A program made the position numbers and the translations under genes. From NCBI GenBank assembly GCA_020446425.1, contig JAGRES010000035.1, forward strand, positions 27,501 through 91,500: a stretch of DNA of 64,000 bases, in the 5' to 3' direction. This DNA is from Sphingobium sp. (lineage in GTDB: Bacteria; Pseudomonadota; Alphaproteobacteria; Sphingomonadales; Sphingomonadaceae). Of the stretch, positions 15,828-33,098 are shown one piece after another; position 1 is the first letter of the stretch, and every line of letters begins with the position of its first letter. The notes beneath the pieces were generated by a model that saw only the letters and a list, made by a program, of their open reading frames with translations, did not search any database and had not been told where the DNA came from.

Positions 15828-16502
15828 TTACGAGCTTTGCGGCGCTGCTCTCTCCAGGGCATCTATATCCCGCTTCATGATCACGTCGATATTAGCCTCG
15901 ATGGTATCGACCGGCCAGTTCCACCAGGCGAGTGCGAGCAGCCGCGCGACGGTGGCGTCGTTGAAGCGCTGTTTGAGGGGTGTGGCGGGGTTGCCGCCCA
16001 TGATTGTGTAGGGCGGAACGTCCTGCGTGACGACCGAACGGGCGCTGATGATCGCGCCGTCGCCTATGGTAACGCCGGGCATGATGACCGCCTCCATGCC
16101 GATCCACACATCATTGCCGATGACGGTGTCGCCCTTGCGACCCGGAACATCAAACATCGCCTTGATGTCGTCGAACCCGGTTTCCGGTGTCATCATGAAA
16201 TTGGCGAACGGAAAGGTGGAAAAGCCGCTCATATCGTGATTGGCAGAGCTGGTGACGATGCGCGCGCCATGGGCGATCTGGCAGAATTTGCCGATCACCA
16301 GCTTCTCCGGGCTGAGCGGAAAAGTATAAGGCGCAAGATAGGCGGCGTAATCCTCCAGCGCTTCGAGATGACCAAAATAGGTGAAATCGCCGATTTCGAT
16401 ACGAGGATGGTCGATCACGCGGTTGAGGTGCACGACCGTCTTGATCTGCGTTCCGTCGGGCATGACCATCGGATAGGTCCTAGTGGGGTCGAGCAAGGGC
16501 AT
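15828..16502 (-). CDS. CatB/Vat-like hexapeptide-repeat acetyltransferase
   Basis: 224 residues with left-handed beta-helix repeats (IEIGDFTYFG, LVIGKFCQIAHGARIVTSSANHDMSGFSTFPF, TVIGNDVWIGMEAVIMPGVTIGDGAIISARSVVTQDVPPYTIMGGNPA). This matches the xenobiotic acetyltransferase group, which includes chloramphenicol- and streptogramin-modifying enzymes, but also many housekeeping O-acetyltransferases. The catalytic His is the one in SSANHDMSG. Natural substrate not predictable; resistance should not be assumed. Confidence 0.85.
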   Translation of the reverse strand: MPLLDPTRTYPMVMPDGTQIKTVVHLNRVIDHPRIEIGDFTYFGHLEALEDYAAYLAPYTFPLSPEKLVIGKFCQIAHGARIVTSSANHDMSGFSTFPFANFMMTPETGFDDIKAMFDVPGRKGDTVIGNDVWIGMEAVIMPGVTIGDGAIISARSVVTQDVPPYTIMGGNPATPLKQRFNDATVARLLALAWWNWPVDTIEANIDVIMKRDIDALERAAPQSS

Positions 16503-16738
16503 TATATGTATTTCCGAAGCGATCTGGATTGGTCGCAGCAGGGGTTACCGGGTTTGAGTGGATAATGCCACCCTGCATAAATAACCTATTTGGAACTTTT
16601 ATATTGACATCGTAACGCTGTTTAGGTACATGCATATACAGTGAAGAATAGTGAGTCGCGCCGGAGCGGTGATGAAACGGGCTGGAGCCGAAGGGCATCC
16701 GGCCTTTTTTGTTGCCGGGGCGCGGAAGCGGAGGCCAG
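16503..16738. promoter_or_regulatory. intergenic region upstream of the GTA-like cluster
   Basis: 236 bp that should contain the cluster promoter. A TTGACA hexamer at about 16603 is followed 17 nt later by TACATG, a possible sigma-70-like promoter. An ATGCATATACAG stretch at about 16630 resembles the core of the palindrome in front of the portal gene. No TTAA-N7-TTAA CtrA site is seen. Confidence 0.35.
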
Positions 16739-17353
16739 ATGGCGCGGGCAGGAAGGAGAGCGGGTTCGAAAGACGATAGCGGGACAGCCACGGATGTTCG
16801 TGGTGTCGAAATCGGCAAGGGTGCGAACGCGCGGAAAATCACGCAGCGGCGGACACCACGCAAGAATGGATGGACGAAAGCGCGGCGCGCGAAGTTCCTC
16901 CAGTTGCTCAAGGAAAGCTGCAACGTGACCGACTCTGTCCGGGCGGTCGGGCTGACCCTGCCGGCGGCCTATGCGCTGCGCAAGCGCGATCCGGAATTCG
17001 CTGCGGGGTGGGCCGAGGCGCTGGAACAGGGTTATGCCGAGTTGGAGATGCATTTGCTGCGTCAGTCGATCTATGGCGCGAAGACCACCGAGATTGTCGA
17101 TGATGGTACGGAAAATGGATCAAAAAAAACCAAAACGGTTCACAGTTATCCGCATATAATCGCGCTGCGCCTGTTGCTCGCACACAAGGACAAGGTGCAT
17201 GCCTATCGCAGCGAGCAGGGCATAGAACGGCCGGGAAGCGAGGCGATCCGCACCGAGATCCAACAGAAGCTGATAGCGATACGTGCGCGAACGGATGATG
17301 AGAGCACGTCAGATGCTGCATCGGATGACACAGAGGGGGATATGGATGCATGA
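16739..17353 (+). CDS. GTA small terminase subunit-like protein (g1-like)
   Basis: 204 residues. A basic N-terminal 45 residues precede a helix-turn-helix region (FLQLLKESCNVTDSVRAVGLTLPAAYALRKRDPEFAAGWAEAL, about 55-97), typical of small terminase-like DNA-binding proteins in GTA clusters; the C-terminus is acidic. It would recognise DNA or bridge it to the large subunit. Overlaps the large terminase start by 4 nt. Confidence 0.75.
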   Translation: MARAGRRAGSKDDSGTATDVRGVEIGKGANARKITQRRTPRKNGWTKARRAKFLQLLKESCNVTDSVRAVGLTLPAAYALRKRDPEFAAGWAEALEQGYAELEMHLLRQSIYGAKTTEIVDDGTENGSKKTKTVHSYPHIIALRLLLAHKDKVHAYRSEQGIERPGSEAIRTEIQQKLIAIRARTDDESTSDAASDDTEGDMDA

Positions 17354-18675
17354 GCCGTTCGCAATGGGAGGAGCTGGCGCACTGGCCTGAGGACAGGCTG
17401 GCGGCGTTTCTGGAGCAGCTCGGCGAACTGGGCCGTGAAACGCTGTTGCATGACTGGGCCGTGCATGCGCGCCCGCAGCAGCTGCCGCCGCCGGGAAACT
17501 GGCGCATATGGCTGATGCTCGCGGGGCGCGGGTTCGGCAAGACGCGCAGCGGTGCGGAATGGGTGCGGAGCATCGCCGAGCGCGATGGCAGTGCGCGCAT
17601 CGCGCTGGTTGGTGCGACGATGATGGAAGCGCGCAGCGTGATGGTGGAGGGCGAAAGCGGCCTGCTGGCGATAGCGCCGTGGTGGGACCGGCCTGTCTGG
17701 CATCCGGCGCTCAAGCGGCTGGTGTGGAAATCGGGTGCGCAGGCGATGGTGCTGGGCGCGGCCGAGCCGGACAGCCTGCGCGGGCCGCAGTTCACGCATG
17801 GCTGGGCGGACGAGCTGGCGAAATGGGCCTATGCGGAGGCGACCTGGGACAATTTGATGATGGGTTTGAGGCTGGGCCTGCACCCTCGCATATTGGCGAC
17901 GACGACGCCGCGCCCGGTGCCGCTGATCCGGCGGCTGGTGAAGCAGGCTGGTGTTGTCGTGACGCGCGGTAGCACCAGGGACAACCGCGCGCATCTGGCC
18001 GAGGGCTTTTGGGCGGCGATGCAGGCTGATTATGGCGGCACGGCGCTGGGGCGGCAGGAGCTGGACGGTGAGCTGATCGAGGAGATGGAAGGCGCGCTGT
18101 GGACACGCGCGCTGATCGAACGGTGCCGCGAGCGATTGGGCGGCGCGGTGCGGGAAGACGAGCGCCCCTTTGCCCGTGTCGTAGTGGGGGTCGATCCGCC
18201 CGCCGGGACGGATGGCGACGCTTGCGGCATAGTGATCGTGGCGCTGGGGCATGATGGACGTGCTTATGTGATTGAGGACGCAAGCGTGGAAAAGGCAAGT
18301 CCGGAAGGCTGGGCGAGAGCAGTCGCGGCGGCGGCGGCGCGGCATGGCGCGGACCGGGTGATCGCGGAGGCCAATAATGGCGGCGCGATGGTGGCAAGTG
18401 TGTTGCGCGCGGCGGAGACGGGCTTGCCGGTCAAGCTGGTCTATGCGAGCCGGGGCAAGAGCGCGCGGGCCGAACCGGTCGCGGCGCTGTATGAGCGGGG
18501 CAGGGTGGCTCATCTCGGCGCGTTTCCAGCACTGGAGGACCAGATGTGCGCTATGCTGATCGCTGGCGAGTATGTAGGGCCGGGCAGATCGCCCGACCGT
18601 GCCGATGCGCTGGTGTGGGCGCTCAGCGAACTGATGCTGAAGCATGTAGCGCATCAGTCGATCCGAACCTTGTAG
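17350..18675 (+). CDS. GTA large terminase subunit (g2-like)
   Basis: 441 residues. The ATPase half carries the Walker A motif AGRGFGKT (residues 58-65) and a downstream hydrophobic-acidic segment in WADELAKW. The C-terminal nuclease half has VVVGVDPPAG and later Asp/Glu-bearing segments of the RNase H fold. It would package DNA into heads. It is directly followed, after 81 bp, by the luxR gene. Confidence 0.93.
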   Translation: MSRSQWEELAHWPEDRLAAFLEQLGELGRETLLHDWAVHARPQQLPPPGNWRIWLMLAGRGFGKTRSGAEWVRSIAERDGSARIALVGATMMEARSVMVEGESGLLAIAPWWDRPVWHPALKRLVWKSGAQAMVLGAAEPDSLRGPQFTHGWADELAKWAYAEATWDNLMMGLRLGLHPRILATTTPRPVPLIRRLVKQAGVVVTRGSTRDNRAHLAEGFWAAMQADYGGTALGRQELDGELIEEMEGALWTRALIERCRERLGGAVREDERPFARVVVGVDPPAGTDGDACGIVIVALGHDGRAYVIEDASVEKASPEGWARAVAAAAARHGADRVIAEANNGGAMVASVLRAAETGLPVKLVYASRGKSARAEPVAALYERGRVAHLGAFPALEDQMCAMLIAGEYVGPGRSPDRADALVWALSELMLKHVAHQSIRTL

Positions 18676-18756
18676 ACGACAGTCTATTGCGCGCATGTCA
18701 ATCAAGGCTAATGCCATTGTACAGACTGGTCGCCTTACATATATGAATACACTGGA

Positions 18757-19497
18757 GTGGCTGATAATCGGGATTCGTTCGTGCACCCGGAATTGAACGA
18801 AATAGCAAAGACCGAATCGCCCGCCGAGCTGTGGCGGGTGGTGAGGCACTATTTCAAGGACCATGGCTTCAGGGGCCTGGCCTATTTCGTCGCCAATCGT
18901 GCCGGTCCCGGCGGAAGCCGCAAGGGGTTCAATGTCGTCCATCACGGCTTTTCCCGAGAGGTAACGAGAGCCTATATTGACGAGGGCTGGGGCGAGAAAG
19001 ACCCAGGTCCGCCCTTCGTACTGGCGCGCGGCATCGCGATGCGCTGGTTCGAGATATGGGATGTCATTGAACCGGACGATGAACAGAGGGAATTTTACCA
19101 GCGTATGCATCAGGCGGGCCTTGGTAATGGCCTGATGTTTCCCGTATATGGTCCTGGCGGTCGCAACGGTAATATATCTGTCGGGCGGATGGCTGACCCA
19201 GCGGTTCTGGATACTGCGCCTGCAGAGGAAATGCATATTTTTGCGCAGTCCGCCCATATGCGCCTGTGCCAGTTGCTGCCCGATAAACCGGCGCTGGAGA
19301 AGCCACTGTCGGCACGCGAACTGGAAATTCTCGACTGGGTGGCGCGCGGCAAAAGCAACAGCGTGATCGCCGACATACTGGAGCTGTCAGGAGCGACGGT
19401 GGATACCTATTTGCGGCGTATATATGACAAGCTGGATGTGTCCGACCGGACATCGGCGGCGGTGCGTGGCGTGGGCATGGGGCTGATTGCGGCGTAG
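18757..19497 (+). CDS. LuxR-type regulator embedded in GTA cluster
   Basis: 246 residues. Residues about 15-165 form an autoinducer-binding-like domain with the DPGPPF, RWFEIWD and GLGNGLMFPVYGP segments matching conserved Asp-Pro, Trp and Gly positions; residues 180-246 form the GerE helix-turn-helix (LSARELEILDWVARGKSNSVIADILELSGATVDTYLRRIYDKL). No luxI is visible, so it would be an orphan receptor. The start may be GTG 18757 or GTG 18781. It sits between terL and the portal gene, followed by two palindromes. Confidence 0.85.
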   Translation: MADNRDSFVHPELNEIAKTESPAELWRVVRHYFKDHGFRGLAYFVANRAGPGGSRKGFNVVHHGFSREVTRAYIDEGWGEKDPGPPFVLARGIAMRWFEIWDVIEPDDEQREFYQRMHQAGLGNGLMFPVYGPGGRNGNISVGRMADPAVLDTAPAEEMHIFAQSAHMRLCQLLPDKPALEKPLSARELEILDWVARGKSNSVIADILELSGATVDTYLRRIYDKLDVSDRTSAAVRGVGMGLIAA

Positions 19498-19544
19498 AGA
19501 TTTCTGGCTGCGCTGCACCGGTTCATGGAATTCGGGTCTAATTA

Positions 19545-19557
19545 ATCCAAATTGGAT
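19545..19557. promoter_or_regulatory. palindrome upstream of portal gene, site 1
   Basis: ATCCAA-A-TTGGAT, perfect 6-bp arms, 58 nt upstream of the portal start and 48 nt after the luxR stop. Candidate operator. Confidence 0.45.
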
Positions 19558-19566
19558 CAAGTTTAT

Positions 19567-19584
19567 CGCCTGCATATGCAGGCG
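19567..19584. promoter_or_regulatory. 18-bp perfect palindrome upstream of portal gene
   Basis: CGCCTGCATATGCAGGCG is fully self-complementary over 18 bp, the size of a lux box, and lies 30 nt before the portal ATG. It is in the short gap directly after the luxR gene. Whether the adjacent LuxR protein binds it is inferred from position only. Confidence 0.55.
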
Positions 19585-19614
19585 CGCATAGTTGCGCCTG
19601 AAGGAGTGACATTC

Positions 19615-20754
19615 ATGAAATTGTTCGGATGGAAGGGTTCGGCGGAAACGCCGCGCCCGGTCTTGTCGCGCGCCTATGCGATGGGCGGGGCCATGCTGGG
19701 CGAGTGGCCCGCCGCCTATGAGCCGCAGGTGCGCGCTGCCGTGCTGGCCAATCCGGTGGCGCAGCGCGCGGTGCGGCTGGTGTCCGAAGCGGCAGGCGAG
19801 GCGGCGATTGCCGCCAGCGGCGCGAGCGCGGCGGAGAACCAGCAGGCGCGGGCATTGGTGCGGCATGTGTCGGGCGGGCAGGGGCTGGTGGAGACGCTAG
19901 CACTCAATCTGCTGCTGCATGGTAACAGTTATGTGCAGATCGCCTGTGATGCGGCTGGCGCGCCTACGGAATTGTTCGCGCTGCGGCCCGAGCGGGTGAG
20001 CGTGGATGTCGATGCGCGCGGATGGCCGGTTGCGTACCAGTATCGGGTGGGCGAGCGTGTGACGCGGCTGGCGTCCGAGGATGGCGCGGGACGGGCGGCG
20101 ATCGTTCATATCAAGGCGATCAACCCGATTGACGATCATTATGGGCTGGGGTGCCTCGGCGCGGCGTCGGGGCCAGTGGCGATCCATAACGCGGCGACGC
20201 AGTGGAACAAGGCGCTGCTCGATAATGCGGCGCGGCCCAGCGGCGCGCTGGTTTATGACAGCGGCAAGGACGGCGCGACGCTCTCCGCCGAACAGTTTGC
20301 CCGGTTGAAGGCGGAAATGGAAGCGGCGTTTCAAGGCGCGGTCAATGCCGGACGGCCGATGCTGCTGGAAGGCGGGCTCAGGTGGCAATCGCTCTCGATG
20401 TCGCCCGCCGAGATGGATTTCGTTGCCTTGAAAGCGGCGGCGGCGCGGGAGATCGCGCTGGCCTTTGGCGTGCCGCCGATGCTGCTCGGCATACCGGGCG
20501 ATAATACGTACGCCAATTATCGTGAGGCGAACAAGGCGCTGTGGCGGCAGACCATCGTGCCGCTGATGAGCAAGATACTGGGCGGCATCGCGCAGGGGCT
20601 GCGCGGCTGGATGCCCGGGCTGGAACTAGGCGTCGATATGGACAAGGTGCCGGAGCTTGCCGACGAACGCAGCGCCTATTGGGAGCGCATCGCGGGTGCC
20701 GGGTTCCTGAGCGATGAGGAAAAGCGCGCGCTGCTGGGGTTTGGCGTCATTTGA
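19615..20754 (+). CDS. HK97-type portal protein (g3-like)
   Basis: 379 residues. The portal forms the DNA channel and head-tail vertex. Family features include NPVAQRAVRLVSEAAGEA near the start, LLLHGNSYVQI, IVHIKAINPIDDHYGLGCL and the C-terminal GVPPMLLGIPGDNTYANYREANKALWRQTI block. A GGAG site 8 nt before the ATG at 19615 sets the start; an open extension to 19552 overlaps the operator-like palindrome. Confidence 0.93.
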   Translation: MKLFGWKGSAETPRPVLSRAYAMGGAMLGEWPAAYEPQVRAAVLANPVAQRAVRLVSEAAGEAAIAASGASAAENQQARALVRHVSGGQGLVETLALNLLLHGNSYVQIACDAAGAPTELFALRPERVSVDVDARGWPVAYQYRVGERVTRLASEDGAGRAAIVHIKAINPIDDHYGLGCLGAASGPVAIHNAATQWNKALLDNAARPSGALVYDSGKDGATLSAEQFARLKAEMEAAFQGAVNAGRPMLLEGGLRWQSLSMSPAEMDFVALKAAAAREIALAFGVPPMLLGIPGDNTYANYREANKALWRQTIVPLMSKILGGIAQGLRGWMPGLELGVDMDKVPELADERSAYWERIAGAGFLSDEEKRALLGFGVI

Positions 20755-20793
20755 TTGGGGGCCGGAGCGGCACATCTCAAAAAGGAAAACGCG

Positions 20794-21105
20794 ATGAGGG
20801 ACAGCGATATGCTCGCCGGGCTGGTGGCGCAGGCTGAAGGGTCTGGCGGCGATCTGGTGATGATCCGCGCGCTGGTCGAGGAAGCGAGCGAGATGGGCGC
20901 GGGGCGCGCGCTCGACCGGCTGGGCCTGAGTGATCGGGAAGCGGAGGACGATGTGCGCGAATTGCGCGAGTTGCTCGGTGCATGGCGTGACGCGAAGAAA
21001 TCGGTGCGCAGCGCGGTGATCGGCTGGGCGGTGCGTGTGGGCTTCGCGCTGATGCTGATCGGCATGGCGGTGAAGCTGGGTCTTTTTGGGTTGGTGCGCG
21101 GATGA
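20794..21105 (+). CDS. small C-terminally anchored protein (g3.5 position)
   Basis: 103 residues: an acidic, helical N-terminal 75 residues and one membrane helix near the end (VIGWAVRVGFALMLIGMAVKLGLFGL). It resembles DUF6127-like proteins found at this place in sphingomonad GTA clusters. Function unknown. AAGGAA 7 nt before the ATG supports the start; it overlaps the protease start by 4 nt. Confidence 0.7.
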   Translation: MRDSDMLAGLVAQAEGSGGDLVMIRALVEEASEMGAGRALDRLGLSDREAEDDVRELRELLGAWRDAKKSVRSAVIGWAVRVGFALMLIGMAVKLGLFGLVRG

Positions 21106-21647
21106 ATACGCAGATCGTAGAGGCGTTTCCGTTCGCTTCGAGCGGAGGTTTGAGCTCTGTCGAGAACCAAAGTCGAGAAGATGTTCTCGACAGCCATCTC
21201 GACCCTGCTCGATGGCAGCCCGAACCGAACGGGAAGGGGGCAAAGGAAGCAAGTGTGCGCTTTGCGGGTTATGCCGCGCTGTTCGACCGTGAGGACAGAG
21301 GCGGAGATATCATCAGGCGCGGGGCGTTTGCACGTGCGATTACGGCCTGGCGCGGGCGCAAGGTGCCGCTGTTGTGGCAGCACAAGCCGGATGCGCCCAT
21401 CGGCATGATCGAGAGCATGAGCGAGGATGCGCGCGGCCTGCGCGTGATCGGACAGGTGCGCGCCGATGCGCCGGGTGCGGCGGCGAAGCTGCTGAAGCAG
21501 GGCCAAGTGAACGGCCTATCCTTCGGCTATCGGGTGACGCGCGCCGATGGCGCGGCGCCACGGGTGCTGAAGGACCTCGATCTGGTTGAGGTCAGTCTTG
21601 TCACATATCCGATGCAGCCCGGCGCGAGGGTGCATGCAGTGGAATAG
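21102..21647 (+). CDS. HK97 prohead protease, S78 family (g4-like), with repeat-derived N-terminus
   Basis: 181 residues. The core from residue 51 (SVRFAGYAALFDREDRGGDIIRRGAF...LLWQHKPDAPIG...VNGLSFGYRV) has the S78 His (His94) and Ser (Ser140) and should cleave scaffold or capsid precursor. Residues about 10-44 are encoded by a palindromic repeat and look unrelated to the family. Translation may really begin further in, but no ATG is available before residue 102, so the repeat is probably translated or a GTG (the SVRF region) is used. Confidence 0.88.
   Translation: MNTQIVEAFPFASSGGLSSVENQSREDVLDSHLDPARWQPEPNGKGAKEASVRFAGYAALFDREDRGGDIIRRGAFARAITAWRGRKVPLLWQHKPDAPIGMIESMSEDARGLRVIGQVRADAPGAAAKLLKQGQVNGLSFGYRVTRADGAAPRVLKDLDLVEVSLVTYPMQPGARVHAVE
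21129..21232. repeat. GTTCG-type palindromic repeat inside the protease gene
   Basis: CCGTTCG start and CGAACGG end enclose complementary TCGAGAA/TTCTCGA arms. It falls within the 5' end of the protease reading frame. Confidence 0.75.
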
Positions 21648-21668
21648 CTGCCACGAAATCTAAAATTA

Positions 21669-21810
21669 CCGTTCGTTTCGAGCGGAGATCGAGCTTGTCG
21701 AGATCGAAGTCGAGAAAGTGTTCTCGACGGACGCATCTCGGCCTTGGCTTGTCCTGAGCGACTGCTCTGGCGGGCAGTCGAAGGGCTCGATGCTGCTCGA
21801 ACTGAACGGA
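21669..21810. repeat. GTTCG-type palindromic repeat between protease and capsid genes
   Basis: About 142 bp from CCGTTCG to GAACGGA with several TCGAGA/TTCTCGA arms, filling most of the gap between the protease stop and the capsid ATG at 21864. Confidence 0.75.
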
Positions 21811-21863
21811 TGTTGAGAGAAAGTCTCTCGAATTTCCAGAGGGCAGATTTGCAGGAGAAGCCT

Positions 21864-23006
21864 ATGTATGAAGTGAAAGCCGATGCGCTGGAGGAGAGCT
21901 TTGACGCGCTCGCCCAGGCGGAAAAAATTGCAACATTGGAAGCCGATATGGCTTCGTTGAAAGGCCAGGTGGCGGCTGCCGCACGAGGTGCGGTCGAGCG
22001 TCCGGCGCTCGACGGCGTAAAGGGTACTGAGGCCGATCCGGCACGCGCCGCATTCGTCGACCAGTATCTGCGTCAGGGCCAGATGACCGGTGTCGAGCTG
22101 AAAAGCATGTCGGGCGCAACGGGCGCGGCGGGCGGCTTCGCGGTGCCGCGCGAAATTGATGCGATGATCGATTCGACGCTGAAAGCCATCTCGCCGCTCC
22201 GCGCGGTCGCCAATGTCGTGAAAACCGGCTCGGCGGGCTATCGCAAGCTGGTGGCGTCGGGCGGCACGCCCTCGGGCTGGGCCAGCGAAACCGGCGCCCG
22301 CGCCGAAACCGCGACGCCGACCTTCAACGAGATCGCACCGCCATCGGGCGAGCTGTTCGCCAATCCGGCGGCGTCTCAGGCGATGCTCGATGATGCGCAG
22401 TTCGATGTTGAAAGCTGGCTGGCGAACGAAATTTCGATGGAATTTGCCCAGGCGGAAGGCGCAGCGTTCGTGTCGGGCACAGGCACCAATCAACCCAAGG
22501 GCTTTCTGACCTATACTGCCACCAACGAGGCGGACAGCGTGCGCGCCTTTGGGTCGCTGCAATATGTCGCGTCGGGCGCGGCGGGTGCGTTTGCGACCAG
22601 CAACCCGCAGGACAAGTTGGTCGATCTGGTGCATTCGCTGAAGGCGCCATACCGGCAGGGTGCGGCGTTCGTGATGAATGCGGCGACGCTGGCGGTGATC
22701 CGCAAGTTCAAGACGACGGACGGTGCATTCCTGTGGCAGCCTTCGCTGTCCGCCGAGCAGCCCGCGACCCTGCTGGGTTATCCGGTGATCGAGGCGGCGG
22801 ACATGCCGGACATCGCGGCCAATAGCTTGTCCATCGCCTTCGGCAATTTCCGCCAGGGCTATGTGATCGCGGAGCGCAGCGAGACGAGCATCCTGCGCGA
22901 TCCCTACAGCAATAAGCCGTTCGTGCATTTCTATGCGGTCAAGCGGATCGGCGGCGCGGTGACGAATAGTGAAGCGATCAAGCTCATGAAATTCTCCGCC
23001 TCCTGA
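21864..23006 (+). CDS. HK97-type major capsid protein (g5-like)
   Basis: 380 residues. N-terminal coiled-coil-like scaffold region (residues 1-90, FDALAQAEKIATLEADMASLKGQVAAA) is expected to be cut off by the prohead protease. The mature HK97-fold part includes GGFAVPREIDAMI, WASETGARAETATPTFNEI, ANPAASQAMLDDAQFDVESWLANEI and the GYVIAERSETSILRDPYSNKPFVHF end. The start is after the palindromic repeat, with GGAG 9 nt before the ATG. Confidence 0.95.
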   Translation: MYEVKADALEESFDALAQAEKIATLEADMASLKGQVAAAARGAVERPALDGVKGTEADPARAAFVDQYLRQGQMTGVELKSMSGATGAAGGFAVPREIDAMIDSTLKAISPLRAVANVVKTGSAGYRKLVASGGTPSGWASETGARAETATPTFNEIAPPSGELFANPAASQAMLDDAQFDVESWLANEISMEFAQAEGAAFVSGTGTNQPKGFLTYTATNEADSVRAFGSLQYVASGAAGAFATSNPQDKLVDLVHSLKAPYRQGAAFVMNAATLAVIRKFKTTDGAFLWQPSLSAEQPATLLGYPVIEAADMPDIAANSLSIAFGNFRQGYVIAERSETSILRDPYSNKPFVHFYAVKRIGGAVTNSEAIKLMKFSAS

Positions 23007-23130
23007 TATTTGCTCCATGGTGGCCTGCGAAGGGCAGCTTTCTGCGCTTCCGGTGCTCATGTACCGCAAAGTACACTGCGCTCCGGTTCTCGAAAGCTGC
23101 CCTTCTCGGCTCACCCTGAACCAAATATCC
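23006..23130. repeat. long imperfect hairpin between capsid and connector genes
   Basis: Outer arms GATATTTG/CAAATATC (23006-23013, 23123-23130) and inner arms GAAGGGCAGCTTTC/GAAAGCTGCCCTTC (23030-23043, 23093-23106) are perfect. A central GTAC...GTAC pair extends it. This differs from the GTTCG and CCCTCTC repeat types. It fills the 240-bp capsid-connector gap. Confidence 0.75.
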
Positions 23131-23245
23131 GCCGCCATATGGTTCGATGTGGCGGTGCATTTCACGCTTCCTCCACTCGGCTCTAGCAGATGCGGGAGCC
23201 GGGTTTCCTTTGGGGGCATTTCGGAAAATATTGGAGGCGCACGCA

Positions 23246-23785
23246 ATGACGGTGCAGATGCAGGCGGTGGCGCAGACGATTGTCGATGCGGCGCGCGATG
23301 AAACCAAGGCATGGCTGCGGATCGAGACCGCCTATGACGACAGCGCGATTGCGGCGCTGGCCCGCGCGGCCATTGGCATGGCGGAGGATTTCTGCGCGCA
23401 GCTGATGTTTACGCGCGGCGGCACGGAGGTGCTGACGGCGAGCAGCGAATGGGTGCGCATGCGCGCCTGCCCGGTGCGCAGTATCACGGCGGCGCGCGGG
23501 CTGCCCGCCGAGGGCGCGAGCTTTGCGTTGGCGAGCGACGCCTACGCCATTGATATCGGCGCGGATGGCGACGGCTGGGTCCGCGTGATTCAGCAGGGGG
23601 CGGCGGGCCGGGTGGAGGTCGACTTCACAGCCGGGATCGTCGACGACTGGCCGAGCCTGCCCGAGGCGTTGCGGCAAGGGATCGTGCGGCTGGCCGCGCA
23701 TCTGTTTGCCGAGCGAAACAGCGACGCGCCGCCCGCCATCGTGACAGCACTGTGGCGGCCCTGGCGGCGGATGCGCATCGCATGA
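23246..23785 (+). CDS. head-tail connector/adaptor protein (g6-like)
   Basis: 179 residues. The opening with ETKAWLRIETAYDDSAIAALARAAIGMAEDFCAQ matches phage gp6-like head-tail connector proteins (DNA-packaging adaptor ring). The later YAIDIGADGDGWVRV...VEVDFTAGIVDDWPSLPEALRQGIVRLAAHL segment is also typical. GGAG 9 nt before the ATG supports the start. Overlaps the next gene by 4 nt. Confidence 0.85.
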   Translation: MTVQMQAVAQTIVDAARDETKAWLRIETAYDDSAIAALARAAIGMAEDFCAQLMFTRGGTEVLTASSEWVRMRACPVRSITAARGLPAEGASFALASDAYAIDIGADGDGWVRVIQQGAAGRVEVDFTAGIVDDWPSLPEALRQGIVRLAAHLFAERNSDAPPAIVTALWRPWRRMRIA

Positions 23786-23988
23786 CCGCGCTGCCGATGA
23801 CGATGCGCAAAGGGACACAGATTGCGCAGGCACGCGCCGCGCAAAAGCGTGGCGAGATTGCCGATGAGGCAAATGCCATTCCGGGCGTGCATGCGCATGT
23901 CGAGGACGAGGCGGTGGTGCTGGAAGGGCGCGGGCTGCTGGACCGCTGGATTCGCGAGGCCAGCCTGCGCCATATCGGAAGGATTTAG
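23782..23988 (+). CDS. small protein at the g7 (stopper) position
   Basis: 68 residues, basic N-terminus, acidic middle (VEDEAVVLEGRGLLDRW). It overlaps the connector stop as ATGA. It holds the slot where the Rhodobacter GTA has its stopper protein g7 but is much shorter, so equivalence is uncertain. No motif recognised. Confidence 0.6.
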   Translation: MTALPMTMRKGTQIAQARAAQKRGEIADEANAIPGVHAHVEDEAVVLEGRGLLDRWIREASLRHIGRI

Positions 23989-23991
23989 GCG

Positions 23992-24387
23992 ATGAATGCC
24001 GAATATGACATTCGCGGTGCGCTGATCGCCGAGCTGCGCGGCGATGTGGCCCTGACGGCGCAGGTGAACCGTATCCATGACGGGGTGCCCGATAAAGCGA
24101 CGCCGCCCACGATGATGGTCGGGGAGTGTCTGGGTACAGACTGGGCGGTCAAGGACAAGCCGGGGCGGGAGCTGCGCATCGCAATCACCATCGAGGACGA
24201 TATCGAAACGCCGACGCGCATCAGCGGGATCATGCCTGTGACGGATGCCGCCGTGCAGCGCCTGACGGGCACTGTTGCGGGATGGCAGGTCGGCAGCCTG
24301 CGCATGGTGCGCTCGCGATTGTTGCGCACCAATGCGGGGCGGTGGAATGCGCTTATGGATTATCGGATACGGGTGTTGGCGGTTTAG
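23992..24387 (+). CDS. DUF3168-type tail terminator (g8-like)
   Basis: 131 residues. The start YDIRGALIAELRGDVALTAQVNRIHDGVPDKATPPTMMVG is typical of DUF3168 proteins, which cap the tail tube at the head interface; the hydrophobic and acidic IAITIEDD strand and closing RVLAV fit the fold. It lies 3 nt after the small preceding gene. Confidence 0.85.
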   Translation: MNAEYDIRGALIAELRGDVALTAQVNRIHDGVPDKATPPTMMVGECLGTDWAVKDKPGRELRIAITIEDDIETPTRISGIMPVTDAAVQRLTGTVAGWQVGSLRMVRSRLLRTNAGRWNALMDYRIRVLAV

Positions 24388-24416
24388 TTTGATTTCGCTC
24401 ACGCGAAATGGCGGTG

Positions 24417-24486
24417 CCGGCCCTCTCCCCCACCCAACCACCCGATGACAATACCCTATGGGTGGTTGGGTGGGGGAGAGGGCTGG
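24417..24486. repeat. CCCTCTCCCCCACCC-type palindrome, copy 1
   Basis: A perfect 23-bp inverted repeat (24421-24443 and 24460-24482) around a 16-nt loop, in the gap after the tail-terminator gene. The same outer arm sequence recurs at 51740-51816. Confidence 0.8.
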
Positions 24487-24523
24487 TGAGGTACGATTTC
24501 AGCCAAAGCTGAAATCAGACAAT

Positions 24524-24841
24524 TCAACCCGCGTTGTCGAAATCGTCGGTCATCTTTTCGCGATAGCCTTCGATCTGGTCATCCGCATCCTCATTGGATT
24601 CGGCGTCGGTCATGCCGTCGGCCTTGTCGGCGGCGACCAGAGCTTCGCGGAATTTCACCTCCTGCTTGGCGCATTTGGTGGTGAGACCCGCTAGAAACTC
24701 TTCGCGCGCGATTTTACGATCGGATGCATCGCGCGTGTATTCGCCCAGACATGAAGCATAGGCCTGACGCGCCTTGGGAACTGCGTCTGCCGGGGCAGCC
24801 GCCGCGAAGATCAGTGCAACGAGAACCATAAACCCCTCCAT
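24524..24841 (-). CDS. small secreted protein on reverse strand within GTA cluster
   Basis: 105 residues. A signal-peptide-like hydrophobic start (MVLVALIFAAAAPADA) is followed by a charged helical domain with two Cys (SCLGEY, TKCAKQ) that could pair in the periplasm, and an acidic tail. It is the only minus-strand gene between the tail terminator and tail tube genes and lies between a palindrome and the tube-gene promoter region. Function unknown; it looks like an insertion of a cellular gene. Confidence 0.6.
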   Translation of the reverse strand: MEGFMVLVALIFAAAAPADAVPKARQAYASCLGEYTRDASDRKIAREEFLAGLTTKCAKQEVKFREALVAADKADGMTDAESNEDADDQIEGYREKMTDDFDNAG

Positions 24842-24912
24842 TCAGATGGCTTTGAAAACGCCACGACTCTGATGTCGTGACGGCCATCGCTTGTATCAAG
24901 GAGCAGATATCA

Positions 24913-25320
24913 ATGAGCGTGGAAAAAGGAAGCGCATTTTTGCTGAAGATCGGCAATGGCGACGTACCGCTGACCTATGCCACAATCGCCGGTTTGCGCA
25001 CGACGCAGCTGCAGGTGAGCGGCGAGGCGGTGAACGTCACCAACAAGGACAGCGGCGGCTGGCGCGAATTGCTGTCGGGCGCGGGCGTGCGCGCGGTCAG
25101 CGTGTCGGCGGCGGGCATTTTCACGGGCTCGGCGGGCGAGGTGAAAATACGCACGCATGCGCTGGCCGGGACCATCGACGATTATGAGCTGAGCTTTGAA
25201 AGTGGGGAGCGCATGCGCGGCAAATTCCTCGTCACGCGGCTGGAATATGCGGGCGATTATAATGGCGAGCGCAATTATACGATCAGCCTGGAAAGCTCCG
25301 GCCAGGTGGTGAGCCTGTGA
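24913..25320 (+). CDS. major tail tube protein, TP901-1 type (g9-like)
   Basis: 135 residues. EKGSAFLLKIGNG...YATIAGLRTTQLQVSGEAVNVTNKDSGGWRELLSGAGVRAVSVSAAGIF is diagnostic of the TP901-1-like tail tube family. It forms the hexameric tube. The start is chosen at ATG 24913. The stop overlaps the next gene's GTG. Confidence 0.92.
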   Translation: MSVEKGSAFLLKIGNGDVPLTYATIAGLRTTQLQVSGEAVNVTNKDSGGWRELLSGAGVRAVSVSAAGIFTGSAGEVKIRTHALAGTIDDYELSFESGERMRGKFLVTRLEYAGDYNGERNYTISLESSGQVVSL

Positions 25321-25652
25321 GCGCTGCATTGAACGCAATACGCGAGGCCAATCGCCTGCGCGGTGAGGCGAGCCTGTTTGTGCGCGGAGAGTCGCTGTTG
25401 CTGCGTCCGTCCTTTACGGCGCTGGTGGCGGCCGAAGAAGAGCTGGGGCCGCTGTTCGCGCTGGTGGAGCGGGCGTCAGCGGGCGAGCTGAAACTGGCGG
25501 AGATGGTCGCGCTGTTCTGGCACTGCCGCCATGAATGGCCGGATACGATCACGCGCGAGCATGTCGGCGAGGCGGTGGCATCGCAGGGGCTGGCGGCGGT
25601 GACGCCTGCGCTGAAGGCGATATTGCAGCAGATATTGTCGGGCAGGGCGTGA
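25317..25652 (+). CDS. GTA gp10-like tail assembly chaperone
   Basis: 111 residues from a GTG overlapping the tube stop. The sequence RGEASLFVRGESLLLRPSFTALVAAEEELGPLFALVERASAGELKLAEMVALFWHC matches gp10-type GTA proteins (gene transfer agent family), which act as tail assembly chaperones. Confidence 0.85.
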   Translation: MSAALNAIREANRLRGEASLFVRGESLLLRPSFTALVAAEEELGPLFALVERASAGELKLAEMVALFWHCRHEWPDTITREHVGEAVASQGLAAVTPALKAILQQILSGRA

Positions 25653-25695
25653 CGGGCATTTGGCTCATGCTGGGCGCGTATGCGGAGGCGGTCTG

Positions 25696-25908
25696 ATGGC
25701 CGGGAATTTTGCCGAAACCGCGCTGCAACTGGCGGGCCTTGCGGGCTGGCATCTGGGGTGGAGCGCGGATCAGTTCTGGAGCGCGACCCCCGCGGAAATG
25801 GAGATCGTGGTGCGGGCCATGCTGGGCGCGGATGCGGAAGGTGGCGGGGATGCGCCGCCCAGCCGTGCGGACATCGACCGATTGATGGAGTTATACCCCG
25901 ATGGATGA
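25696..25908 (+). CDS. phage tail assembly chaperone, small (g10.1-like)
   Basis: 70 residues with AGLAGWHLGWSADQFWSATPAEMEIVVRAMLG, characteristic of the short GTA tail chaperone (DUF2376-like). It overlaps the next gene by 8 nt. In tailed phages two overlapping chaperone frames are usual at this place. Confidence 0.78.
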   Translation: MAGNFAETALQLAGLAGWHLGWSADQFWSATPAEMEIVVRAMLGADAEGGGDAPPSRADIDRLMELYPDG

Positions 25909-26467
25909 GGAAATCGACCGGCTGGTCGTTTCGGTGCGCGCCGATACGCAGGGCTTTGCCAGGGATGTGGCGGATATGCGCAGCGAGTTGGAAGGGCCGC
26001 TGATCGTTGGCACGGAGCGCGCGGGCAGGGCGATAGAGGCGTCGTTGCGGCGCGCGGTGATTACCGGCAAGTTCGGCTTTGAGGACCTGCGCAGGATTGC
26101 GCTGAGCGTTATCACCTCTATCGCCAACGAGGCCCGCAAGATTGCGTTCAGTCAGCTTCTGCCCTCCGGCAAGGGCGGTCTGTTGGGCGGCGTACTGAAC
26201 ATCGCGAGCGCGGCTTTTGGCGGTGCGCCGGGGCGGGCGACGGGTGGGCCGGTTACGGCAGGGCGAGCCTATAAGGTTGGCGAAAGTGGGCCGGAGCTGT
26301 TTGTGCCGAACGCAGGTGGCCGGATCGTCGCAGCCGGTGGCGGATCGGGTGGGCGCGATGTGCGCGTGACTATCAACGTAAACTCTCCCGATGCAGGCGC
26401 GCCGCAGGCGTTGGCGCGCAGCGCGCGGCAGATTGCGCGCAATGTTCGTTCAGCATTGTCAGAGTAA
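25901..26467 (+). CDS. short tail tape measure protein (g11-like)
   Basis: 188 residues, far shorter than phage tape measures, as in Rhodobacter GTA. DRLVVSVRADTQGFARDVADMRSELEG at the start, a small hydrophobic region (LLGGVLNIASAAFGG) and the C-terminal RATGGPVTAGRAYKVGESGPELFVPNAGGRIV motif are typical tape measure features. A short protein implies a short tail. Confidence 0.88.
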   Translation: MDEEIDRLVVSVRADTQGFARDVADMRSELEGPLIVGTERAGRAIEASLRRAVITGKFGFEDLRRIALSVITSIANEARKIAFSQLLPSGKGGLLGGVLNIASAAFGGAPGRATGGPVTAGRAYKVGESGPELFVPNAGGRIVAAGGGSGGRDVRVTINVNSPDAGAPQALARSARQIARNVRSALSE

Positions 26468-26471
26468 ACTT

Positions 26472-26565
26472 CCGTTCGGTTCGAGCGGAGCCGAGAACAT
26501 ATGTCGAGAACGCGTTTCTCGACTTCGGTTCTCGATAAACTCGAACCTCCGCTCGAAATGAACGG
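26472..26565. repeat. GTTCG-type palindromic repeat between tape measure and distal tail genes
   Basis: CCGTTCG...AACGG ends with TCGAGCGGAG and CTCCGCTCGA complementary arms, filling the gap of 126 bp before the next ATG at 26594. Confidence 0.75.
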
Positions 26566-26593
26566 CCTTTTTGATTTATTGAGGAAAACCCCC

Positions 26594-28918
26594 ATGACCT
26601 ATTGGCTGGCGTCAAAAGGCGGCGGGCAGGAGAAGGGCGTGATCAAGCGCTTCTCGCCCGCCTACTGGACGGTCAATTTCCCCCGCCCGATGATGGCAGG
26701 TGTCGTCACCACTGCGCCGGACGCATTGCGCGTCGATGCGGTATTTTATGGGTCGGGCGATCTCGCGGGCCTGATCTGGGAAGCGGAGGATGTGTGGGAT
26801 CATCCCTTGCTCGCCTATGAGACAAGTCGTGATTTCCGTAACTGTCAGCTCCGTTTTCACTGGCGCAGCAGTGGCCTGAAGCCGCTCGATACATTGCACG
26901 GGCCGACGCTGACCATCGAGGGGCGGGACCAGGGCGGCAATCCCAAAAGCTGGTATGTGCGCCTGTGGAATTACGCCAGCGGGTCGAGCGAGGACGCCGA
27001 CATCGTGCTGGATTTTAATGCGATGGATGGCGGTTATTTGCTGCCTGCAGAGGCGGACCCGGTATGGGCGGGCGATGTCGACCGCATGTTCATCTCGCTG
27101 GTCGCGCCCGGTTACGATGCCGGGACGACGCCATTCGCCAGCGGACAGGAAGGCTGGGCCGAGCTGACCGGCATACAGTGCGACGGTTCGGGATCGGTGC
27201 TGTCCATCGGGGATGTGATGCTGCCTGAACATGGTCTGTCGATGGCGACCGGCTATGACGACGGATATAACCAGACGCCAGAGCGGCTGGTGCGGCAAAT
27301 CCATGCGCTCGGTTATCGCGGCGATATTCTCCATTATGTCGGGATGAGCCATTATTTCCGGCTCGAGGCCAATAGCGGCGGCTGGTACGCCAGCCTGACG
27401 GGAGGAGCGCTGAATGCGCCATGCGCCGCATGGCATGCGGACTATGCCGCGCGGGCCAAGGCGATGGGGTTAGGTCTGATCTGGTCGCTGTCCTATGAGT
27501 TGTTCGATGCGCATTGCTGGAATGACTGGAAACAGCGAGCGGAAAATGGCGAACCGGCGCTCACCGGCTGGGTGCCGCCGTCGGCACTGCTCTCGCCCGC
27601 GCATACAGGTGCGATGGGCTATCTGCAGCAGGTCGGTCAGGCGTTCATCGCCATAGGCGTGGCGGCGGGGCTGACGCCCAAATTTCAGGTGGGCGAGCCA
27701 TGGTGGTGGATCATCCCCGCAGACGGACGCATCTGCCTGTATGACGATGCGGCGAAGGCAGCTTTTGGTGGCAGTCCGGTGTCGATTCCGACGGTGCGGG
27801 CATCGCTTAACAGTGCGCAAAAGGCACTGCTCGATCAGGCAGGCGTGCTGCTGGCGAGTTCGACAGCGGCGCTGGTCGCTGCGGTACGGAGCGTGGCTCC
27901 GGCCACAATTTCATACCTGTTGACCTATCTGCCGACCGTGCTCGACCCGCTCGCGCCGGAGGCCAAGCGCGCCAATATGCCGGTGGGCTGGGCCAAGCCC
28001 GCCTTCGATATATTGCAGCTAGAGGATTATGACTGGGTGATCGAGGATCGCAGCGCGCTGACGATAGCGGGCGTGGCGGCGGCGGAAGCGCGGCTGGGCT
28101 ATGGCGCGGGCGAGCAGCATTACCTCTCCGGCTTTGTGCTGAATGCTGTGGATGCGCCGGTGCTGTGGCCGCGCATCGAGAAGGCGGCGGTGACCGGGCG
28201 CAAGCGGGGTGTCGCCGCGACCTTCATCTGGGCGCTGCCGCAAACGGCACGCGACGGCTTCACCTTTTTCGATCTGGGCGAGGGAGACGATATGCAGGCC
28301 TTTGATGATGTGCAGTTCCCGATTGGCATCGGGCGGGAGGCGAGCGTGGTGCCCGCCTTTTCGACGCAGACGGTCGAGAGCCTGTCCGGCCATGAGCGGC
28401 GGTCGAGCGACTGGGCCGACGCGCGGCTGCGGTTCGACGCCGGGCCGGGTGTGCGTTCCGAAGCCGATCTGGTGACGCTGATCGCATTTTTCCGGGCGCG
28501 CAGGGGTGCGGCGCGGGGATTCCGCTTCACCGATCCGTTCGATTATCAGAGCGCGGTTGCCGGGACGGTGGTGACCGCCATCGACCAGAAGCTGGGAACC
28601 GGTGATGGCGTCACCAGCCAGTTCCGCCTCGCCAAATATTATGGGACGGGTGCGGATGCGCAGCAGCGCCTGATTACGCGCCCGGTGGCGGGCAGCATTC
28701 GGGTGGCCATCGACGGCGCCGAGCAGATGAGCGGATGGCGGCATCTGGGTGGCGGTGTGATCGCATTCGATACGTCGCCCGCCAATGGCGCGGCGCTGAC
28801 CGCCGGGTTCAGCTTCGATGTGCCGGTGCGCTTTGCCGAGGACGCGCTGGAGGTAAGCCGCGCCACCTTTGCTGCCGGGGAAGCGCCATCGGTGCCGCTG
28901 GTGGAGATACGCGAATGA
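26594..28918 (+). CDS. distal tail protein DUF2460 fused to a TIM-barrel-like domain (g12-like)
   Basis: 774 residues. The C-terminal about 210 residues (DDVQFPIGIGREASVVPAFSTQTVESLSGHERRSSDWADARLRFDAGPGV...FRARRGAARGFRFTDPFDY) are the DUF2460 distal tail domain of GTA g12, normally about 200 residues alone. The N-terminal 560 residues begin with a beta-rich part and continue with a segment resembling a glycoside-hydrolase barrel (YRGDILHYVGMSHYF, GLIWSLSYELFD, FQVGEPWWW with a possible catalytic Glu). GAGGAAA before the ATG supports the start. Confidence 0.88.
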   Translation: MTYWLASKGGGQEKGVIKRFSPAYWTVNFPRPMMAGVVTTAPDALRVDAVFYGSGDLAGLIWEAEDVWDHPLLAYETSRDFRNCQLRFHWRSSGLKPLDTLHGPTLTIEGRDQGGNPKSWYVRLWNYASGSSEDADIVLDFNAMDGGYLLPAEADPVWAGDVDRMFISLVAPGYDAGTTPFASGQEGWAELTGIQCDGSGSVLSIGDVMLPEHGLSMATGYDDGYNQTPERLVRQIHALGYRGDILHYVGMSHYFRLEANSGGWYASLTGGALNAPCAAWHADYAARAKAMGLGLIWSLSYELFDAHCWNDWKQRAENGEPALTGWVPPSALLSPAHTGAMGYLQQVGQAFIAIGVAAGLTPKFQVGEPWWWIIPADGRICLYDDAAKAAFGGSPVSIPTVRASLNSAQKALLDQAGVLLASSTAALVAAVRSVAPATISYLLTYLPTVLDPLAPEAKRANMPVGWAKPAFDILQLEDYDWVIEDRSALTIAGVAAAEARLGYGAGEQHYLSGFVLNAVDAPVLWPRIEKAAVTGRKRGVAATFIWALPQTARDGFTFFDLGEGDDMQAFDDVQFPIGIGREASVVPAFSTQTVESLSGHERRSSDWADARLRFDAGPGVRSEADLVTLIAFFRARRGAARGFRFTDPFDYQSAVAGTVVTAIDQKLGTGDGVTSQFRLAKYYGTGADAQQRLITRPVAGSIRVAIDGAEQMSGWRHLGGGVIAFDTSPANGAALTAGFSFDVPVRFAEDALEVSRATFAAGEAPSVPLVEIRE

Positions 28919-29739
28919 GTGCCGACACGATATTGGCACAGGAGCTGGTGACGCTGGCCTTTTGCTGGCGGCTGGAGCGGCGCGACGGTGTGGCCATCGG
29001 CCTCACCAGCCATGACCGTGATCTGGTGATTGGCGGTATCATATACGAGGCCGCGCCTGGGCTGGTGCCCTCGGCGATCCGCCGTGGAACGGGGTTGGAG
29101 CCGGAGTCGATGGACCTCAAGGGCGCGATCACCAGCGATGCGATCAGCGAGGCCGACCTGAATGCGGGCAAGTGGGACGGGGCGGCGCTGTATCTGTATC
29201 TGACCGAATGGACCGAGCCGGGTACGCTGTGGCTGGAGCTGATGCGTGGCGAGCTGGGCACGGTGCAGCAGCAGGATGAGAGCTTTTCGGCGGAACTGGC
29301 TGGGCCGGTATCGGTGCTGGGCAGACCGGTCGCGCCTGAGACATCGCCGGGCTGCCGTGCGCTATTGGGCGACAAGGCGTGCAGGATCGACATGGCGCAT
29401 CATCGCCGGGTGGTGACGATAGCGTCGACGGCGGACGAGGTGGTGGCCGTAAGTGGCGGCGGGCTGGTGAACGGCGATTATCTGTTCGGCACGCTGCGCT
29501 GGTTGGAAGGCGCGAATTGTGGGCTGACGCAGAGTATCGTCGCCAATGATGCGGGCAGCGTGACATTGGCCGACGTTCCGGCATTTGCCGTTACTGCGGG
29601 CACGCGCGCGCTGCTGACCGAGGGATGCGACAAGCTGATGGCGACATGCTCGGGGCGCTTCGCCAATGCGGCCAATTTTCGGGGTGAACCCTATCTGCCG
29701 GGGAGCGACCTGCTCACCCGATATCCCGGAGCAACCTGA
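28915..29739 (+). CDS. tail hub protein DUF2163 (g13-like)
   Basis: 274 residues. DTILAQELVTLAFCWRLERRDGVAIGLTSHDRDLVIGGIIYEAAPGLVPSAI is the DUF2163 N-terminal domain; the second half with CRALLGDKACRIDMAHHRRVVTI and the final GCDKLMATCSGRFANAANFRGEPYLPG contains conserved Cys seen in the phage_BR0599 domain that binds Fe-S in some relatives. Overlaps g12 by 4 nt and g14 by 1 nt. Confidence 0.92.
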   Translation: MSADTILAQELVTLAFCWRLERRDGVAIGLTSHDRDLVIGGIIYEAAPGLVPSAIRRGTGLEPESMDLKGAITSDAISEADLNAGKWDGAALYLYLTEWTEPGTLWLELMRGELGTVQQQDESFSAELAGPVSVLGRPVAPETSPGCRALLGDKACRIDMAHHRRVVTIASTADEVVAVSGGGLVNGDYLFGTLRWLEGANCGLTQSIVANDAGSVTLADVPAFAVTAGTRALLTEGCDKLMATCSGRFANAANFRGEPYLPGSDLLTRYPGAT

Positions 29740-30140
29740 TGCGGCGCGCCGAGAGGATAGTCGCGGCGGCGCGGGGGCTGGTGGGTGTGCCCTTTCGCCT
29801 GCACGGGCGGGATGCGCGCACTGGTGTGGATTGCATCGGCCTTGCGATGCTGTCGTTGGAGGGCGCGGGGCATAAGGGTCTGCATGCCTTTGTTCCAGAT
29901 GCCTACAGTATCAGGGGCGGCAGCGTTGCGTGCTTTGCCGATGCCATGGCGGCGCTGGGTTTGCGAAAGGCGCGGACCCAGCATGCGGGCGATCTGGTGC
30001 TGGTGCAGGCGGGGCCGGCACAATTCCATCTGATGATCGCGACCGATGGCGGACATGTGCACGCCCATGCCGGGCTGGGCAAGGTGGTCGAGATGCCCGG
30101 TGCGTCCCCCTGGCCTGTGCTCGGTCGCTGGCGTTTCTGA
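29739..30140 (+). CDS. NlpC/P60 cell-wall peptidase (g14-like)
   Basis: 133 residues. Catalytic Cys in GVDCIGLAM (about residue 31) and His in AQFHLMIATDGG (about 96) define the NlpC/P60 fold. It should cut peptidoglycan during DNA delivery. Its ATG shares one base with the hub stop. Confidence 0.92.
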   Translation: MRRAERIVAAARGLVGVPFRLHGRDARTGVDCIGLAMLSLEGAGHKGLHAFVPDAYSIRGGSVACFADAMAALGLRKARTQHAGDLVLVQAGPAQFHLMIATDGGHVHAHAGLGKVVEMPGASPWPVLGRWRF

Positions 30141-30157
30141 TATTTGGGAGAAGAGTA

Positions 30158-32365: not shown

Positions 32366-32396
32366 ACCATGAATAGCCGACACGGAGAAATAGCAT

Positions 32397-32900
32397 ATGA
32401 GCGATGCGAGCGATCGCTTTGCGCTGCCGCTGCTGCATGCGGGGCAGGCGCAAAAGGAAATCACCCATAATGAGGCGCTGCAACTGATCGACATGCTGCT
32501 GCACCCCTATGCCGAGAGCGCGTCGCTGACGGCACCGCCAGGAGGAGAAACAGCGGGCCAGAGCTGGATTGTAGCGGCTGGCGCAAGCGGGGCGTGGGTC
32601 GGGCAGGACGGTAATCTGGCGCTCATGACATCGGGGGGGTGGCGCTTTGTCGTGCCCAAGGCCGGGATGAAGGTGTTTGTGGCGGATATCGGCGCCGCCT
32701 CTGTTTTCGACGGGTCTGTATGGGTGGCGGACGCGGTTGGGGCCGATGGCTATTATGTGAACGGACAGCGGATCATTGGCGCCCGGCTTTCCGCCATAGG
32801 CGATCCATCCGGAGGGAGCGTGATTGATACGCAATCGCGGGCCGCGATCGGATCAGTCCTTACCATGCTGCGCAATCACGGGATGATTGATGCCGCGTGA
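32397..32900 (+). CDS. DUF2793 phage-associated protein
   Basis: 167 residues with the DUF2793 signature: SDASDRFALPLLHAGQAQKEITHNEALQLIDMLLHP, then SWIVAAGASGAWVGQDGNLALMTSGGWRFVVP. These occur at the end of GTA and prophage tail clusters and may be tail-fibre or tip-associated. It is 31 nt after the g15-like gene and ends the cluster. Confidence 0.85.
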   Translation: MSDASDRFALPLLHAGQAQKEITHNEALQLIDMLLHPYAESASLTAPPGGETAGQSWIVAAGASGAWVGQDGNLALMTSGGWRFVVPKAGMKVFVADIGAASVFDGSVWVADAVGADGYYVNGQRIIGARLSAIGDPSGGSVIDTQSRAAIGSVLTMLRNHGMIDAA

Positions 32901-33098
32901 TAGAAGCGGCTGACGAAAAACAAATAACTGTCCGATTACTCAATTTGGTGACACTGTAATGAGATAATTTTGCATTTGGCATGATTTTACAAAGGGCCGT
33001 TTTACACTGTGGATCGGCCAAAAGTTGTCTTGCCATGCAACTTTTGTGAGAGTAGGGAGTTTTCGCAGTCCTAGTGACCATTTTGAAAGGGGAATGAT

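Follow-up and report, generated by a model that had tools for sequence, protein, structure and literature searches.

A LuxR-solo gene housed between the terminase and portal genes of a Sphingobium gene transfer agent-like cluster

The 64-kb stretch of Sphingobium DNA analysed here, hereafter the window, carries on its forward strand a cluster of head and tail genes that encloses a regulatory gene. The cluster opens with a gene at 16739–17353 that is taken as the small terminase (terS) by its position and for which no match was found in Pfam or NCBIfam, followed by terL (17350–18675, with domain matches to Terminase_6N/6C), a luxR-type gene of 246 codons (18757–19497), the portal protein gene (19615–20754), and the remaining structural genes (20755–34178), which include DUF6127, prohead protease, HK97 capsid, head–tail connector and tail genes. 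The presence of a LuxR-family gene between terL and portal, proposed in a sequence-only reading of this DNA, is confirmed by these coordinates, with terL ending at 18675 and the portal ATG at 19615. Gene order across the structural cluster, which is related to that of the Rhodobacter capsulatus gene transfer agent (RcGTA), is nearly unchanged in SYK-6 and BIN35, and terL is matched (E ≤ 1e-40) in 85 of 94 same-genus genomes. With its head and tail genes in fixed order and its genus-wide occurrence, the cluster is of the RcGTA-like gene transfer agent (GTA) type, as known here from genes alone. Its neighbours include, divergent from the GTA promoter, a hexapeptide acetyltransferase gene on the reverse strand (15828–16502) that is Vat/CatB-like and scores under the curated cut-offs of those families.

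The luxR product combines Autoind_bind (E 1.5e-15) and GerE (E 8.1e-17) domains and is accordingly a LuxR-type transcription factor. Its start may be 18757 or 18781, because several relatives in the alignment apparently begin at the codon equivalent to 18781. The AlphaFold model of the protein (mean pLDDT 85, pTM 0.67) finds its best fold matches in the PDB among CviR, RhlR, QscR, LasR and SdiA. In TraR numbering, the residues of the AHL site are W57, Y61, D70, P71, W85 and G113; the residue matching Trp57 of TraR was placed through the CviR alignment. At these six positions the window protein has V, Y, D, P, W and G. Across an alignment of 43 chosen sequences, a subset of the relatives fetched, the W57 equivalent is V, E, Q or I in rows from GTA clusters and Trp in none of the 19, nor is it Trp in any of five same-clade Novosphingobium rows, as against 13 of the 19 other rows. 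The other site residues are largely kept in the GTA rows (Y61 in 19 of 19; D70, W85 and G113 in 18 of 19 each), with P71 in 7 of 19. A Y61W-type pocket change marks plant-responsive LuxR solos, according to PMC4288048; the GTA rows give no sign of this PAB, OryR-type class, all 19 having Tyr at the Y61 equivalent.

A search of this genome, which is 99.9% complete, turned up no LuxI. The same search found LuxI in 11 of 19 LuxR-positive genomes, as well as in G130, and none in 7 of the other 18 LuxR-positive genomes; it may miss some, because it finds three in SYK-6 (G073), for which PMC4288048 reports four. With LuxR domains and no adjacent luxI, the protein is a LuxR solo. The sequence-only reading had suggested a quorum-type switch for the structural genes; an AHL switch of this kind is unlikely, because none of the 19 GTA rows keeps the Trp57 equivalent and the search for LuxI in the genome was negative.

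Residence of luxR in this slot extends well beyond the window. A profile built from nine relatives was searched in the 94 same-genus genomes and matched 21 of them at E ≤ 1e-25, 19 at more than 300 bits and two (G078 and G103) at only 175–180 bits. Among the 19 genomes with this LuxR type, which include the named carriers S. fluviale, S. jiangsuense and Sphingobium sp. SYK-6, luxR lies immediately 3′ of terL in 14 (G000, G032, G072, G073, G074, G087, G089, G095, G096, G097, G100, G105, G107 and G113). It stands just ahead of portal at a contig break in G017, ahead of portal with terL not upstream in G034, G076 and G098, and ahead of a capsid remnant in G028. G-numbered genomes are paired with named loci, such as G028 with L103 and G073 with SYK-6, by agreement of contig coordinates, and G113 is taken as the genome of L076. 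Relatives retrieved from IMG/VR, partly of the same species as those in the genus-genome count, have portal 3′ of luxR in 24 of 24 cases and terL 5′ in 23 of 24. A survey of sphingomonad GTA clusters had been put forward as a check on the sequence-only reading, which absence of luxR from this site in all close relatives would have weakened; the reading withstands it, because luxR is kept there in relatives. IMG/VR classes sphingomonad GTA clusters as viral contigs, and all 24 relatives (L178–L201) were found under that label. In S. sufflavum (L076, 5294–7254) two tandem luxR genes occupy the space between terL and portal, and the second is devoid of the W85 and G113 equivalents. Of 18 terL–portal gaps examined in Sphingobium without this LuxR, at least 6 (L039, L041, L048, L050, L051 and L052) encode instead a small, glycine-rich protein that resembles a signal-peptide product.

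Upstream of terS, a predicted GTA promoter (TTGACA-N17-TACATG, 16604–16632, forward strand) is conserved across loci, with the near-dyad ACATCGTAACGCTGT in its spacer (16607–16621, 6 of 7 pairs) and a conserved box, CCTATTTGG, ahead of it (16585–16593, forward strand; CCAAATAGG in L170). The element TTGACATCGTNACGCTGTTT upstream of terS is a single site in this genome at ≤3 mismatches and is common to LuxR-positive and LuxR-less clusters, usually with CCTATTTGG ahead. Conservation of the box amounts to 1.62 bits per position in 14 LuxR-positive loci versus 1.66 in 10 LuxR-less loci, and that of the promoter core to 1.65 versus 1.93, the LuxR-less loci being from core Sphingobium genomes without such a LuxR. 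Judged by its sequence, a conserved GTA control region is thus present upstream of terS with or without luxR. The split clusters of S. nicotianae and S. xanthum (L147, L148, L152 and L146) have terS–terL at a second locus, which carries the same promoter core without the CCTATTTGG box.

These comparisons bear on the idea of a cis-encoded switch with feedback, in which LuxR would activate or repress the terS promoter directly. The near-dyad ACAtCGTNACGCTGT, which forms 4–7 of 7 pairs in 28 loci and is perfect in 2, has a size suited to a dimeric regulator. However, LuxR cannot be required at this promoter, because promoter and box are equally conserved in the 10 LuxR-less core Sphingobium loci, and the spacer dyad resembles the GafZ element of the Caulobacter crescentus GTA (CcGTA); we consider direct action at the terS promoter improbable.

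Between the promoter and terS lies a candidate intrinsic terminator (16679–16710, forward strand), consisting of a hairpin at 16679–16705 and a T run to 16710. Defined as a hairpin followed by T's, starting 61–81 bases past TTGACA and folding at –19 kcal/mol or better, such a leader terminator occurs in 17 of 29 rows, two of which (L034 and L069) come from one genome. The hairpin is missing or different in the other 12: none at all was seen in 8, in L147 another stem lies at +40, and those of L077, L080 and L103 fold more weakly (–13 to –15) and are outside the 17 counted. Most rows without it belong to the SYK-6 clade or Novosphingobium; the terminator is present in S. jiangsuense and was not found in Sphingobium sp. 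SYK-6. In an alignment of 15 loci, which excludes L076 and the second copy from the L034/L069 genome, double changes occur in 6 of 13 pairs; covariation contributes little (–1.05 of –22.61 kcal/mol), and 5 loci break the innermost pair.

Ahead of luxR, a second promoter-like block (TTGTAC-N17-TATATG, 18717–18749, forward strand) is conserved with the closest relatives L178 and L179 only. It shares 30 of 33 bases with L178, compared with 21 of 37 in the remainder of the gap; across luxR the match is 514 of 702, and across terL it is 1040 of 1317. Within the window's own group the variant reads TTGTAC-N17-TATATG/T. The SYK-6 clade has a box of its own before luxR, CTTGCTTTTG-N11-GCGGACNAT, which is exact in L075, L077, L078, L079 and L103 and in the IMG/VR loci L191, L194, L195, L197 and L198. 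It is matched with 3–4 mismatches in L080, L170 and L171, a tolerance that lets in stray matches as well, and was not found before luxR in L081; no common promoter-like block was seen before luxR in the other clade A species. A strict promoter and terminator scan of 16500–20000, under rules that missed the terS promoter, the leader terminator and the luxR block alike, returned no promoter where 1.0 would be expected by chance and a single, unrelated terminator where 2.3 would be.

On the 3′ side of luxR, the 117-bp gap before portal contains two palindromes, both as the sequence-only reading described them: the 13-bp ATCCAA-A-TTGGAT (19545–19557) and the perfect 18-bp CGCCTGCATATGCAGGCG (19567–19584), the latter 30 bp before the portal gene. 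The same reading had LuxR bind the 18-bp palindrome and switch portal and the downstream genes from an internal promoter. A perfect, suitably sized palindrome at this distance from portal would fit such a role, and it is unusual; it is not unique, because the window as a whole has two gapless perfect palindromes with arms of at least 9 bases. The lux box follows the pattern CT-N12-AG, and the half-site spacing of the palindrome differs from it. Its core, CTGCATATGCAG, is absent from the luxR–portal gaps of 14 other named genomes (best match 2–5 mismatches) and of the 24 IMG/VR relatives (3–6 mismatches), two sets that overlap in some gaps. The 13-bp palindrome, scored in the 24 IMG/VR gaps only, differs there by 3–7 mismatches. 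Across the genome at ≤3 mismatches, CGCCTGCATATGCAGGCG occurs exactly once and inexactly at 7 more sites, the closest of which has 2 mismatches and falls in coding sequence for what looks like a signal peptide; the whole genome holds no second non-coding exact copy. The palindrome was therefore rejected as a LuxR operator, its core not being kept in relatives' gaps and its best other genomic site being coding. The strict scan, moreover, lists no promoter-like site there, and the same gap carries a terminator hairpin in the two closest relatives, making control of portal through the palindrome very improbable. The related imperfect stretches that the same reading placed before terS and luxR coincide with –10 elements: ATGCATATACAG (16630–16641) shares bases with that of the conserved terS promoter, and TTACATATATG with that of the luxR promoter-like block.

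As RNA, CGCCTGCATATGCAGGCG forms a 7-bp hairpin (–12.6 kcal/mol) with no U run after it, and we take it for a hairpin specific to this species, possibly a worn terminator. The terminator hairpin of L178 and L179, whose luxR genes are 72% identical to that of the window, reads GGGCAGC-CATTGT-GCTGCCC-TTTTTGTT in L178; L170, L171 and L191 likewise have clear terminator hairpins 3′ of luxR. The gaps of other relatives contain repeat-like inserts or different hairpins, and those of L063, L065, L066 and L069 have long imperfect inverted repeats that are REP/MITE-like. A lenient count gives terminators in 21 of 37 luxR–portal gaps against 4.7 expected, with mixed denominators, shuffled gaps scored only to 260 bases and long gaps cut at 320; our reading uses the five clear cases alone. 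Because luxR has its own conserved promoter-like block, it resembles a moron-style cassette; a terminator of its own is seen in relatives only, since the hairpin in the window gap is without a U run.

To place luxR in time, we compared trees of LuxR and TerL. The LuxR tree draws on 62 candidate loci, of which 52 rows remained once short or weak matches had been set aside, and joins 16 GTA rows and five Novosphingobium rows in one clade (support 99/96); in the five Novosphingobium members luxR has no GTA genes within 6 kb. Two changes of an 'in the GTA' label are required on this tree, so the slot was possibly entered twice, or left in Novosphingobium. The TerL trees, of 38 rows and of 42 once G062, G093, G105 and G111 were added, likewise each require two changes of the LuxR label. 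They place 26 LuxR-less same-genus rows, a subset of the 73 genus genomes that gave no luxR profile match, in one group (support 95/84); the position of S. sufflavum in the 38-row tree is unsure (64/23). With two Novosphingobium rows as outgroup, this pattern is compatible with luxR in the Sphingobium ancestor and a single loss. The trees thus fit long residence of luxR in the GTA cluster and one loss, in core Sphingobium. A phage origin of luxR was considered and rejected: 14 of 50,697 phage records match, 4 of them at ≥80% query coverage with ~23–26% identity, shorter matches among those listed show 33–48% identity at 28–58% coverage, and all 24 IMG/VR matches are GTA-type contigs.

Long retention may also be read as service to the host, with LuxR a host-directed regulator that is housed in the GTA locus, acts on chromosomal targets and exerts no control over GTA output. 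The luxR frame is unbroken in clusters that have lost structural genes (L103/L146, L077/L150 and L078/L152); in L103 portal and most of the capsid gene are gone, and the genome of L103 has no portal match at E ≤ 1e-10. The persistence of luxR in L103 and in the deleted cluster of L150 means that a role outside the GTA also fits. In 10 pairs, including loci with lost structural genes, luxR dN/dS is low (0.03–0.27, with dS mostly near saturation), and the HTH is nearly identical in Novosphingobium relatives whose luxR stands away from GTA genes. No shared dyad is prominent in the non-coding DNA of 17 LuxR-positive loci, where shared dyads show only a weak excess over shuffles, to which repeat elements and the promoter contribute. 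However, so long a stay in one slot is unexpected of an unlinked function, although vertical inheritance alone could explain it, and the GTA promoter is still found 5′ of luxR in L075, L078, L103 and L170, where terL is not upstream. We regard a purely host-directed LuxR as possible but rather unlikely.

The explanation that we prefer instead gives luxR and the particle genes separate controls. In this proposal, luxR would be an old, vertically inherited LuxR-solo gene housed as a moron-like cassette within the Sphingobium GTA operon, equipped with a promoter and, in several lineages, a terminator for its sole use, so that it could be transcribed with the particle genes off. The structural genes would be switched from the single promoter upstream of terS, where a GafYZ-like activator and antiterminator probably lets RNA polymerase through the leader terminator, and this machinery would work without need of LuxR. 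LuxR itself would most likely be an accessory regulator that senses a ligand, other than a canonical AHL, or a state. We infer the transcription units, the antitermination and the accessory regulation of GTA output within this model, the antitermination because the GafZ palindrome and the GafYZ-dependent passage of a terminator in CcGTA are analogous. No GafYZ homologue was identified, the Bac_DnaA_C search of the genome, which covers the DnaA-type domain alone, finding only DnaA. That match (dnaA), the only one in the genome, lies in the window at 40028–40234, ~6 kb past the GTA cluster. Taken whole, the model seems to us evenly balanced between right and wrong. The bolder claim that the cluster contains its own sensor, an independently transcribed LuxR solo whose pocket has moved away from AHLs, which reads a non-AHL signal, tunes GTA production from within and was retained as the Sphingobium lineage diverged, is offered tentatively and would fall short of probable.

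To our knowledge, little is known of how GTAs are switched outside Rhodobacter and Caulobacter. No description of luxR inside a GTA cluster was met in the literature searched, mostly at abstract level, and neither LuxR nor GafA is matched in the main text of PMC9836097. In RcGTA, whose regulators include GafA, GtaR/GtaI and CtrA, the LuxR-type protein GtaR binds the gafA promoter, according to PMC6363796. The two systems are alike in that a LuxR-type protein belongs to the broader regulatory circuit; they differ in that GtaR works via gafA with a LuxI partner (GtaR/GtaI), whereas here luxR is embedded among the structural genes and the genome search returned no LuxI. In CcGTA (GafYZ, IHF, terGTA), PMC11150451 describes a near-perfect palindrome between –35 and –10 of the GTA promoter that is used by GafZ, and a terminator that follows the first gene and is read through with the help of GafYZ. 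A dyad in the –35/–10 spacer and a terminator early in the cluster are features in common with that description, whereas the present terminator lies in the leader before terS rather than after the first gene, and luxR is present. Among sphingomonad LuxR solos, PMC4288048 records a W57V change in one homologue and, in a section heading, a neighbourhood that is not conserved; a word search of its main text returned neither 'phage' nor 'terminase'. The GTA-resident type matches the solos of that account in its LuxR domains and lack of an adjacent luxI, but differs in its fixed neighbourhood. In a phage moron, an extra gene with its own promoter and terminator sits inside a phage-type late operon. 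luxR is similar in its promoter-like block and, in relatives, its terminator, and differs in residing in a GTA rather than a phage and, in the window, in having no clear terminator after it. Overall, the comparison yields a candidate sphingomonad GTA promoter with a leader terminator, together with a resident LuxR solo. A regulator encoded within the particle cluster would, if true, be a new means of coupling GTA release to a signal; should LuxR serve the host instead, the GTA cluster would be a carrier of unrelated genes.
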